Origin: Candidatus Gastranaerophilales bacterium
Lineage (GTDB): Bacteria; Cyanobacteriota; Vampirovibrionia; Gastranaerophilales; Gastranaerophilaceae
Length of the DNA: 64,000 bases
Assembly (NCBI GenBank): GCA_944324435.1
Contig: CALUWH010000002.1
Location: forward strand, 1 to 64,000
Direction: 5' to 3'
In this document: one piece after another, positions 5,640 through 41,693 of the stretch
Layout of the letters: each line of letters begins with the position of its first letter
Numbering within the stretch: the first letter of the stretch is position 1
The notes under the pieces: model-generated
Databases searched by the model: none
Seen by the model: only the letters and a program-made list of their open reading frames with translations
Told to the model about the DNA's origin: nothing
Made by a program: the position numbers and the translations under genes

Positions 5640-6215
5640 ATGAGACGGGTTTTAATATATTTACTGATGTTAATATTGTTTCAATCTGCAGTATCTTCGC
5701 AAGAAACATTGGAGGATTTTTCAGATATAGATCGTGCCTGGGACGGACAAAAGTCGATAACCAATGAACAATTTGAGGAGGCGATAGATACGCTGGAGGG
5801 GAACAAGAAGAAAAAAGAAGAAAAGCAGCGTAAAAAGTTGATTAAGCGAGTCGGCGGAGGCGGCAGCAGTTTGCATCCGGATCTGGATCCTTCCGGTGAA
5901 ATTAAACCGATGGGTGAGGTTGGGGAGGAGGAGGCACGAATTTTGAATGTTCCGGTGCATTTAATAATGAATGGTAATAAATTAGAAAAGGGATTTTATA
6001 GAATATTAGCTGAACGCAAAAAAGACAAGATATATTTGTTATTTTATCAGTCGCAATTTCTGAAGGGTAAAACGGAAGCCGTGGAAACTAACGACGATTT
6101 TGGTGCAGAGACAATTGATTTTGTAAATTTGACTCCATATAATGAAAATTATATGCGTGTGGAATACGGCTCATTGGATTTAAATGCTTACGCTTTTATA
6201 AAGTACGAGCAATAA
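5640..6215 (+). CDS. Secreted protein of unknown function
   Basis: 191 residues. Residues 1-20 form a signal peptide (MRRVLIYLLMLILFQSAVSS). A very basic stretch (KKKKEEKQRKK, about residues 56-66) and a short glycine run (GGGGSS) follow, then a C-terminal half of beta strands (VPVHLIMNG, FYRILAERKKDKIYLL). I recognise no family. TATAAT at 5628-5633 ends 6 bases before the ATG with no ribosome site between, so the mRNA appears leaderless. It is transcribed divergently from the TPR gene. Confidence 0.75.
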   Translation: MRRVLIYLLMLILFQSAVSSQETLEDFSDIDRAWDGQKSITNEQFEEAIDTLEGNKKKKEEKQRKKLIKRVGGGGSSLHPDLDPSGEIKPMGEVGEEEARILNVPVHLIMNGNKLEKGFYRILAERKKDKIYLLFYQSQFLKGKTEAVETNDDFGAETIDFVNLTPYNENYMRVEYGSLDLNAYAFIKYEQ

Positions 6216-7995: not shown

Positions 7996-8438
7996 TGCTG
8001 AATATTGTTTTATATGAGCCTGAAATTCCTCAAAATACCGGAAATATCGCAAGACTTTGTGCTTGCTGCGGCGCGTCTTTATATCTTGTCGGGAAATTAG
8101 GCTTTGCACTCACTGACAAATACACTAAGCGAGCCGGCATGGATTATTGGCAGAGCGTTGATTTGCACAGGGTTAATTCTATGGAGGAATTATTCAGCCA
8201 ATTCCCTAATGGAAGATTTTTTTACCTCACAACAAAATCTAACAAGAAATATACAGATATCGGATTTAAAGATGGTGACTTTCTGGTCTTTGGGCCGGAA
8301 TCAAGAGGGCTTCCGCAGGAATATGTAACACGCGATACGGCAATTACGATTCCTATTAAGGAAGGGCTAAGAAGCCTGAATTTGTCGAACTCTGTTGCAA
8401 TTGTTGCGTATGAATTTATAAGGCAGGTCGGGTTCTGA
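7995..8438 (+). CDS. trmL: tRNA (cytidine/uridine-34 2'-O)-methyltransferase TrmL
   Basis: 147 residues, a complete small SPOUT methyltransferase. It uses S-adenosylmethionine to methylate the ribose of the wobble base of tRNA-Leu isoacceptors. Family motifs are clear: LYEPEIPQNTGNIARLCA near the N-terminus, VFGPESRGLP in the middle, and the trefoil-knot segment IPIKEGLRSLNLSNSVAIV near the C-terminus. The length matches E. coli TrmL. It is translationally coupled to the preceding phosphatidyltransferase by a one-base overlap. Confidence 0.95.
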   Translation: MLNIVLYEPEIPQNTGNIARLCACCGASLYLVGKLGFALTDKYTKRAGMDYWQSVDLHRVNSMEELFSQFPNGRFFYLTTKSNKKYTDIGFKDGDFLVFGPESRGLPQEYVTRDTAITIPIKEGLRSLNLSNSVAIVAYEFIRQVGF

Positions 8439-38817: not shown

Positions 38818-38864
38818 CCGGTTTCCTAACATAATTCTAACAAAAGTCCTGTAGTATAATAACT

Positions 38865-41693
38865 ATGCTGGACGAAAAAATAGTAAAAAATTTACTCCTT
38901 GGTTTAGGATGCGGAATATTATTATGGCTGATTTATTTTTATAATCTCGGCTTGCCGGCTCTTTTAGATTCTGATGAGACCAGATATGCTCTTATGGCTA
39001 AGAGCATGCTGCATACAAAAGAATTCATCACATTGTATCTGGATGGGCGGATTTTCTGGGATAAACCGCCATTGTACTTCTGGATAGAGTGTTTTTCTTT
39101 CAAGGCTCTGGGGAGGATTGATGAGTTTGCGGTAAGACTGCCAAGTGTTTTATGTGCACTGGCATCTATCGGCGCAATATTTTATTCTGCAAGAAAAGCT
39201 GTATCGGTAAAATTTGCCCTTATAACTGCACTTATTCTTGCAACAAGCGTTGAGTTTGTAATATTTGCAAAAGTTTCTATATTAGATATGCTTCTTGCTT
39301 TTTGTATAACAATCTCGGCGTTTTCAGGTATACTTACGTATTTTGTAAAGAATGATAGTAAAAGATATTTCTGGTTTATATTTTATGTATTCTCAGCTTT
39401 TGGCGTTCTTACAAAAGGGATTCCTGCTGTTGTTATACCATTTTGCACAATGTTCTTTATAGGGTTATGGAAGAAAAATCTTCGTGAATTTTTTAGGCCG
39501 GAATATTTTTTACCCGGATTATGCGCGTTCTTACTAATCGCTCTTCCATGGCATGTGATGATGTACAAAATTCATGGCGCAGAATTTATAAGAGAATACA
39601 TAATAAAACACCACTTCCAAAGATTCCTCGGAAGCAGCGAACTTGGCAGGTGCCATTCTGTATTCTATTTTATCCCGACATTTCTTATAGGATTTTTGCC
39701 TTGGAGTTTTTCTTTCTTATTCGAGCTGCCGGAAGTTTTAAAAGACAAGAAAAAGCAGGATTTCATTGTGATGAACATTATCGGATTTGTTTTTACATTC
39801 CTGTTTTTCTCTATTGCAAAAACGAAACTTATTACTTATATACTTCCAATCTATCCGTTTGCGGCTGTAATTTGTGCTTATATATGGACAGAGAAAAAAG
39901 TTAATTATTCAATCTATCTGACAAACGGTATTTTCTTTTTGTTCGGGATATTATTGCTTTTTGCAGGTTTTTACTTGCCGGAAAATTTATATTTAGCAAT
40001 AAAACCTGTTCAGATACCGCTTGCGTGTATGTTTCTTGTATGTTCATTTTTTATAAAAAAACAATACGCATTTGTGGTTTATATAATCCTGATTACGCTT
40101 TTGTCGAGCTTTATGATACCAAGGCTTTTTAACATCTGGTATGGCTTTGGGCAGCAGGATTTAATGAAATTTGCCGGATATGCAAAATCAGAAGGTTTGC
40201 CGCTTGGGACTTACAATGTGTGGGAAAGATTTAGCCTGCAATATTATTATGGCGGAGATGTAGAATATTTTCTGGCCGGCAAAGCTTATGGGGCAAAATA
40301 TGTTAATACAACAAAGTTTAATAATACATTTAATAACAATCTTATCGTGATTGAAAAAAGAGATTTGAAAAAAATATTAATAACCCTTGTTATATCCGGA
40401 TTAACCATCCTCCTTACAATTCAGCTGACTCAATTCCACAAAGCATATCTGGAAGAAGAAAAGCAAGAAATTACTGCTCTTGCCCAACAGGTAAGCTGGG
40501 CTGTAAAACCTATTCTTAACAAAGGAGATCCAAAAGAACTTGATAAATACTGCAGCCTGTTTATGGCAAGTGAAACAAAGATTACCATAAGTAGCCCGAA
40601 AGGTATTATAGCCGGAGAGAATCTGGAAGCCCCGGATATTATGGAAACCGCGTCCATTAGTTATAATAAAAAACTAAAAACGGATATTTTGTATTATTCT
40701 ATACCTCTGAATGTGAATGGAACTCGCTATATCCTGAGCCTTTCTACTGAAACAGCGGGAATAAGTTCGATTATCAGTAAGTTTGAAAACTATATAATTC
40801 TTAGTATTATCGTAGTAACCCTTTTGATTCTTGCGCTTGCAGTGTATTTTTTCTTAAAGATTCACATTCCGTTTAACAAACTGCAGTCCAGCGCTATTAA
40901 AATAGCCTCCGACGATACGAATACAGATATCTTTATTCCGGACGGAGGAATTCTGTTTGAACTTTCCTGTGCTATCAATAAAATGGCAAAGCGCCTTAGA
41001 AAACAAATAACAGATATGCAAAAACTTGAAGCTTTCAGGAGTGAATTTATTACTAATATCTCTCATGAAGTAAAAACTCCGCTCACGGGAATTTTATCCG
41101 CAGTGGAAATTCTTGAAGAACAGCCGGAGAGCCAAAACCCGACAATCATGAAATGTCTGAATATCCTATCCAACCAATCTTATAGGCTTAATTCACTTAT
41201 TCAGGATATATTGAGCCTCTCGAACATTGAGATGCGGCAGATTAAAGGTGATAAGGATTTCAAAAATTTCAATCTTGCAAATTCTATCACAACAAGTGTT
41301 TCCATATGTTCAGCCTCAAAAGGAAATATCAAGATTAATACCTCGCTGGAAAATCTTGAATACTTTGGGAACAGTTTCCTGATGGAGCAGGCAATGACAA
41401 ATCTTATAATGAATGCAATAAGGTACAGTAAGTCCGATACAATTGATATAAGCCTAAAACAAAAGGATAATTTAATAGAGATAAAAGTCCGTGATTACGG
41501 AATCGGAATTCCTGAAGAGCATATACCGCATATTTTTGAACATTTTTACAGAGTAGATAAAGCCCGAAGCAGAAAGCTCGGCGGAACAGGGCTTGGGCTT
41601 GCGATAGTAAAAAATATAGTAACACTGCATAACGGCAGTATTACTGTTGAATCAAAAAATGGGTGTGAATTTACTATCAAGCTTCCAAATTAA
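38865..41693 (+). CDS. Fusion: ArnT-like GT39 glycosyltransferase + sensor histidine kinase
   Basis: 942 residues in one uninterrupted frame. Residues 1 to about 498 are a polytopic GT39/GT83-type lipid-linked glycosyltransferase, with LLDSDETRYALMAKSM (catalytic Asp/Glu loop), FWDKPPLYFW and LPWHVMMYKIHG, and about eleven helices. From Leu501 (codon TTG at 40365) a complete sensor kinase follows: helix 504-521, a periplasmic loop of about 120 residues, a second helix (ILSIIVVTLLILALAVYFF), HAMP, HisKA with His734 (ITNISHEVKTP), and an ATPase domain with NLIMNAIRYS, DYGIGIPE and GGTGLGLAI. The GT part seems to lack its last 20-50 residues. TATAAT (38855-38860) lies 4 bases before the ATG. No response regulator is adjacent. 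It may be a deletion fusion. Confidence 0.9.
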   Translation: MLDEKIVKNLLLGLGCGILLWLIYFYNLGLPALLDSDETRYALMAKSMLHTKEFITLYLDGRIFWDKPPLYFWIECFSFKALGRIDEFAVRLPSVLCALASIGAIFYSARKAVSVKFALITALILATSVEFVIFAKVSILDMLLAFCITISAFSGILTYFVKNDSKRYFWFIFYVFSAFGVLTKGIPAVVIPFCTMFFIGLWKKNLREFFRPEYFLPGLCAFLLIALPWHVMMYKIHGAEFIREYIIKHHFQRFLGSSELGRCHSVFYFIPTFLIGFLPWSFSFLFELPEVLKDKKKQDFIVMNIIGFVFTFLFFSIAKTKLITYILPIYPFAAVICAYIWTEKKVNYSIYLTNGIFFLFGILLLFAGFYLPENLYLAIKPVQIPLACMFLVCSFFIKKQYAFVVYIILITLLSSFMIPRLFNIWYGFGQQDLMKFAGYAKSEGLPLGTYNVWERFSLQYYYGGDVEYFLAGKAYGAKYVNTTKFNNTFNNNLIVIEKRDLKKILITLVISGLTILLTIQLTQFHKAYLEEEKQEITALAQQVSWAVKPILNKGDPKELDKYCSLFMASETKITISSPKGIIAGENLEAPDIMETASISYNKKLKTDILYYSIPLNVNGTRYILSLSTETAGISSIISKFENYIILSIIVVTLLILALAVYFFLKIHIPFNKLQSSAIKIASDDTNTDIFIPDGGILFELSCAINKMAKRLRKQITDMQKLEAFRSEFITNISHEVKTPLTGILSAVEILEEQPESQNPTIMKCLNILSNQSYRLNSLIQDILSLSNIEMRQIKGDKDFKNFNLANSITTSVSICSASKGNIKINTSLENLEYFGNSFLMEQAMTNLIMNAIRYSKSDTIDISLKQKDNLIEIKVRDYGIGIPEEHIPHIFEHFYRVDKARSRKLGGTGLGLAIVKNIVTLHNGSITVESKNGCEFTIKLPN

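Follow-up and report, generated by a model that had tools for sequence, protein, structure and literature searches.

A glycosyltransferase-histidine kinase gene fusion in a Gastranaerophilales genome, probably formed by deletion within an operon

In one genome of the Gastranaerophilales, a single long open reading frame joins an ArnT-like glycosyltransferase of family GT39 to a transmembrane sensor histidine kinase (HK). We conclude that this is very probably a chimeric gene, left behind by a deletion of approximately 1.9 kb inside an ancestral operon with the gene order GT39-GT2-response regulator (RR)-HK. We regard the encoded protein as most likely accidental and not as a new signaling enzyme; the fusion would be a product of genome decay, which automated annotation could take for a novel enzyme architecture. 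A search of the literature on GT-kinase fusions found nothing relevant. The features discussed below lie in the window, that is, the whole stretch of 64,000 nucleotides that was analyzed:

38826..38842, + strand: direct repeat CTAACA-N5-CTAACA with an 11-bp period, the likely binding box of a lost PhoB/OmpR-type RR; relatives carry the same motif ahead of GT39, GT2, and RR
38855..38860, + strand: -10-like hexamer TATAAT, four bases before the GT39 ATG (sequence)
38865..41693, + strand: fused GT39-histidine kinase open reading frame, 942 amino acids (frame, Pfam)
38865..40376, + strand: ArnT-like GT39 half, codons 1 to about 504, with 13 predicted transmembrane (TM) helices and a truncated C-terminal periplasmic domain (Pfam, hydropathy, 5ezm match, and alignment; for the helix count also a low-confidence model)
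40345..40385, + strand: junction interval, with GT homology ending at about codon 504, HK homology starting from about codons 502 to 508, and the native (M)KKRD lost (alignments)
40377..41693, + strand: sensor histidine kinase half with TM1 (504 to 522), a sensor domain of about 120 amino acids, TM2 (644 to 662), HisKA (His734), and HATPase_c (Pfam, hydropathy, alignment)

The fused frame and its two halves

The original prediction described one frame that encodes an ArnT-like GT39 enzyme followed by a full transmembrane sensor kinase, and this description was borne out by the frame itself, by Pfam, and by the intact active sites. The 942 codons contain zero internal stops, and Pfam recognized PMT_2 (PF13231) at residues 66 to 229 (E = 1.3e-13), HisKA at residues 725 to 789 (E = 1.7e-15), and HATPase_c at residues 839 to 941 (E = 1.4e-29). 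The GT half also matched the ArnT structure 5ezm (E = 3.4e-29). Eight residues that are critical in Cupriavidus ArnT have been listed previously (PMC8306577); all eight positions have counterparts in the GT half, and seven of these are identical (D37, R40, K67, D141, K184, R253, and Y325), with E84 of ArnT, replaced by D66, as the sole substitution. The PMT_2 domain and these residues mark the GT half as an ArnT-like GT39 enzyme. It was not recognized as ArnT proper, the lipid A aminoarabinose transferase, as it scored 139.9 bits with the NCBIfam equivalog model NF009784, for which the cut-off is 567. The active-site residues and a predicted 13-TM plan are common to this protein and the ArnT of the lipid A aminoarabinose pathway, but the C-terminal domain is here shortened and fused to a kinase, and no other arn genes were seen alongside. 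The kinase half has the hallmarks of a transmembrane sensor histidine kinase: the phospho-acceptor His of HisKA (His734) is present, and all five sequence boxes (H, N, G1, F, and G2) are intact.

Gene order in relatives and the junction

The genome that carries the fusion is closest to metagenome-assembled genomes labeled Candidatus Gastranaerophilales. A search for homologues of the two halves as separate neighbors with an intervening regulator gene was successful: in the congeneric genomes G021 (locus L037) and G074 (loci L001 and L071, apparently one contig of isolate BRZ_GG bin1), the genes follow each other on the same strand in the order GT39-GT2-RR-HK. The two genes between GT39 and HK encode an ArnC-like GT2, which scores best with the PgfS and ArnC models, and a PhoB/OmpR-type RR (Pfam, NCBIfam). 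When compared with L071 and L037, approximately 1.9 kb is missing at the join. In every relative locus examined with sufficient contig, RR immediately precedes HK; this includes the locus of G087, which has the closest HK relative (about 68% amino acid identity) and in which RR and HK are adjacent, separate genes. This GT39 and GT2 were not found in G087, the closest relative, either, which fits more than one order of deletion steps. When the same join was sought across the lineage, 66 HK homologues were identified in 65 of the 383 genomes of the order, and the long frame was seen only in the window (950 codons from stop to stop; 433 to 493 for the other HK frames). The fusion is therefore not a multidomain architecture conserved in several species.

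The operon GT2 and RR of this genome are, as judged from these searches, lost rather than moved, because the best match to the RR reaches only 35% identity, compared with about 65% between the operon RRs of relatives, and because the only notable GT2 match (42% identity) is a paralogue carried also by the other five genomes searched. No RR was found beside the fused gene, so the kinase has no adjoining cognate regulator of the kind expected in a two-component system. An internal deletion that removed the GT tail and a regulator gene, one of the two explanations offered originally, is thus supported but needs a correction, in that the ArnC-like GT2 and the first kinase codons are missing as well. 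The gap could instead have arisen if metagenome assembly had skipped the 1.9 kb, and the genome is indeed a draft in 50 contigs (1.95 Mb). However, the contig is long (169 kb), the genome is 98.9% complete, the join shows no long repeat, neither RR nor GT2 turns up elsewhere in the assembly, and the reading frame is preserved, all of which make such an artifact very unlikely.

In alignments with relatives, GT homology extends to about codon 504, where IVIEKRDLKKI in the window corresponds to IVISNDNLSDIKI in G021, and the GT39 half ends 20 to 25 residues short of the native C terminus. HK homology restarts inside TM1, at about codons 502 to 508, and the native kinase start (M)KKRD, near-invariant in 12 other aligned kinases, has been replaced. 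The residues KRD at positions 498 to 500 could be read as a relic of this kinase start. We prefer a GT origin for them, because the relic reading would require a 4-residue deletion inside TM1 and the GT tails of relatives (ISNDNLSDIKI and IRNKDIKDL) align without such a gap.

The upstream repeat and its candidate regulon

An exact CTAACA-N5-CTAACA occurs once in the genome, upstream of the fused gene. In most relatives, the repeat is located 36 to 65 bases upstream of the GT39 start, and it also precedes GT2, RR, and calcineurin-like phosphoesterase genes. Within the genus, the exact box is present in 11 of 12 HK-positive genomes versus 6 of 53 HK-negative genomes (Fisher P = 1.5e-7), and we infer that this was most likely the sequence bound by the lost RR. 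The system resembles PhoB-PhoR, as the RR of relatives scores best with PhoB, the kinase core scores best with PnpS/PhoR, and the box is a direct repeat with an 11-bp period; it differs in that these scores are below the curated cut-offs, the box is another one, and no regulator is left in the genome with the fusion. RaxR-RaxH and ColR-ColS, which adjoin arnT and are thought to control envelope remodeling (PMC8306577), likewise combine a two-component pair with a neighboring ArnT-like gene. However, these belong to another lineage, and the genome described here has lost the regulator gene and carries the kinase as a fusion with the GT. A useful by-product of this work is a candidate regulon in the poorly known Gastranaerophilales, in which a PhoB-like system is associated with CTAACA-N5-CTAACA before ArnT- and ArnC-like genes. 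It adds a modest new example to a theme already familiar from RaxRH and ColRS beside arnT.

The transcript of the fused gene is likely to be leaderless, because the ATG is close to the -10-like hexamer and no Shine-Dalgarno sequence was found before it (energy, +0.3). The GT39 ATG lies a few bases past a -10-like hexamer in three genomes (that of the window and those of L037 and L071), which likewise suggests a leaderless transcript. Additional copies of the repeat were noticed in L072 (7407 and 10732), L075 (4592 and 10702), L002 (10398), and L093 (1501). The genes downstream of these copies encode an exported protein, a calcineurin-like phosphoesterase, a small membrane protein, and a DprA-like protein and are possible regulon members.

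Membrane topology and the fate of the module

ArnT has 13 TM helices and a periplasmic C terminus, as shown by PEGylation and a PhoA fusion (PMC5377068). In the GT half, hydropathy alone gave 12 clear hydrophobic segments; the long hydrophobic stretch at residues 158 to 199 forms two helices (163 to 184 and 187 to 202) in the predicted model, and the two sources together are consistent with 13 TM helices, with the last 20 to 25 or so residues of the C-terminal domain missing. The AlphaFold model of the whole fusion is poor and of low confidence (pLDDT 56, pTM 0.34), and the topology is taken from hydropathy and homology. Since the C terminus of an ArnT-type protein is periplasmic and the kinase requires a cytoplasmic N terminus, TM1 of the kinase would start in the periplasm in the full-length fusion, which would leave the sensor domain cytoplasmic and put the kinase core on the periplasmic side, where there is no ATP. 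The two halves are thus predicted to have incompatible membrane topologies.

This bears on the other explanation in the original prediction, a new enzyme coupling surface glycosylation to two-component output, in which GT39 and the kinase would act as one protein with phosphotransfer to another RR. Although 942 open codons, the active-site residues of both halves, and a perfect regulator box upstream are in keeping with such an enzyme, the fusion is unique to one genome (1 of the 66 HK homologues), the genes are kept apart in relatives, the cognate RR is deleted, and a GT39-family C terminus, being periplasmic (PMC5377068), would put the kinase core outside. The proposal is therefore unsupported, and we consider it highly improbable. 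That the deletion itself created a working GT-kinase, the kinase half having captured another regulator, is extremely unlikely.

An internal start at TTG501 would give the kinase its correct topology, and Leu501 had been noted as resembling a separate kinase start. The codon is indeed TTG followed by AAA AAA. However, the Shine-Dalgarno energy at this position (-2.4 kcal/mol) is not above background (mean, -1.8), and in alignments with relatives codon 501 falls within the GT tail, not at the native HK start, leaving no positive support for such a start in the sequence. It is still conceivable that one frame yields two polypeptides, the GT half and a correctly oriented kinase re-initiated at TTG501 (or GTG495) that serves another regulator. 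TTG AAA AAA leads straight into a TM helix flanked by positive charges, and the kinase residues are conserved. In addition to the points just raised, the absence of an RR ortholog from the genome and of a stop codon between the halves for translational coupling argues against this arrangement, to which we attach very little probability.

We therefore favor a chimeric gene formed by deletion. In the ancestor, RR-HK would have sensed an envelope signal and activated GT39 and GT2 via CTAACA-N5-CTAACA, which would substitute for a -35 element. As suggested by the families and box positions, GT2 would have loaded a sugar onto undecaprenyl phosphate and GT39, acting on the periplasmic face, would have moved the sugar to a surface acceptor. 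The deletion would then have taken out the end of GT39, all of GT2 and RR, and the first codons of HK, joining what remained in frame. Cells may still produce the GT39 half and insert it into the membrane, and the HK half would be a passenger, with its kinase core periplasmic, its sensor domain cytoplasmic, its partner RR absent, and its signaling presumably lost.

Neither half seems clearly faster-evolving than its relatives. The HK half deviates at 6 of the 88 columns that are otherwise invariant, and three of these lie within the replaced start. The GT half deviates at 5 of 81; the other proteins of this GT39 family show 3 to 7 deviations, and the genome's own GT39 paralogue shows 15. The closest sequences, at 68% amino acid identity, are too diverged for dN/dS dating of the deletion, and the genomes compared include no unfused sibling above 70% identity. 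Retained catalytic residues in both halves, a frame open across the join, and a perfect box would be unexpected in an old pseudogene; together with the absence of accelerated change, they indicate that the deletion is recent or that part of the product is still used.

Damage to the module was also seen elsewhere. The box-linked GT39 gene is frameshifted in G074 by a 1-base shift in an A-run (L071, 3310 to 3410), internally deleted in L005 (box at 8004, - strand) and in G079 (L087, box at 781, + strand), and truncated in L006 (box at 5908, + strand), and in G021 a frameshift near residue 235 interrupts the operon GT2 (L037, 10079 to 11016). By this comparison, the module is broken independently in several relatives. 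Such repeated damage fits the repeated loss of a dispensable surface modification and suggests that, as selection changes, the modification is acquired at some times and lost at others. Separately, the HK gene of G074 (L071, 5485 to 5545) lacks an in-frame start codon downstream of the RR stop. This would be explained by one additional A in an A-run after the ATG, which could reflect phase variation, decay, or an assembly error.
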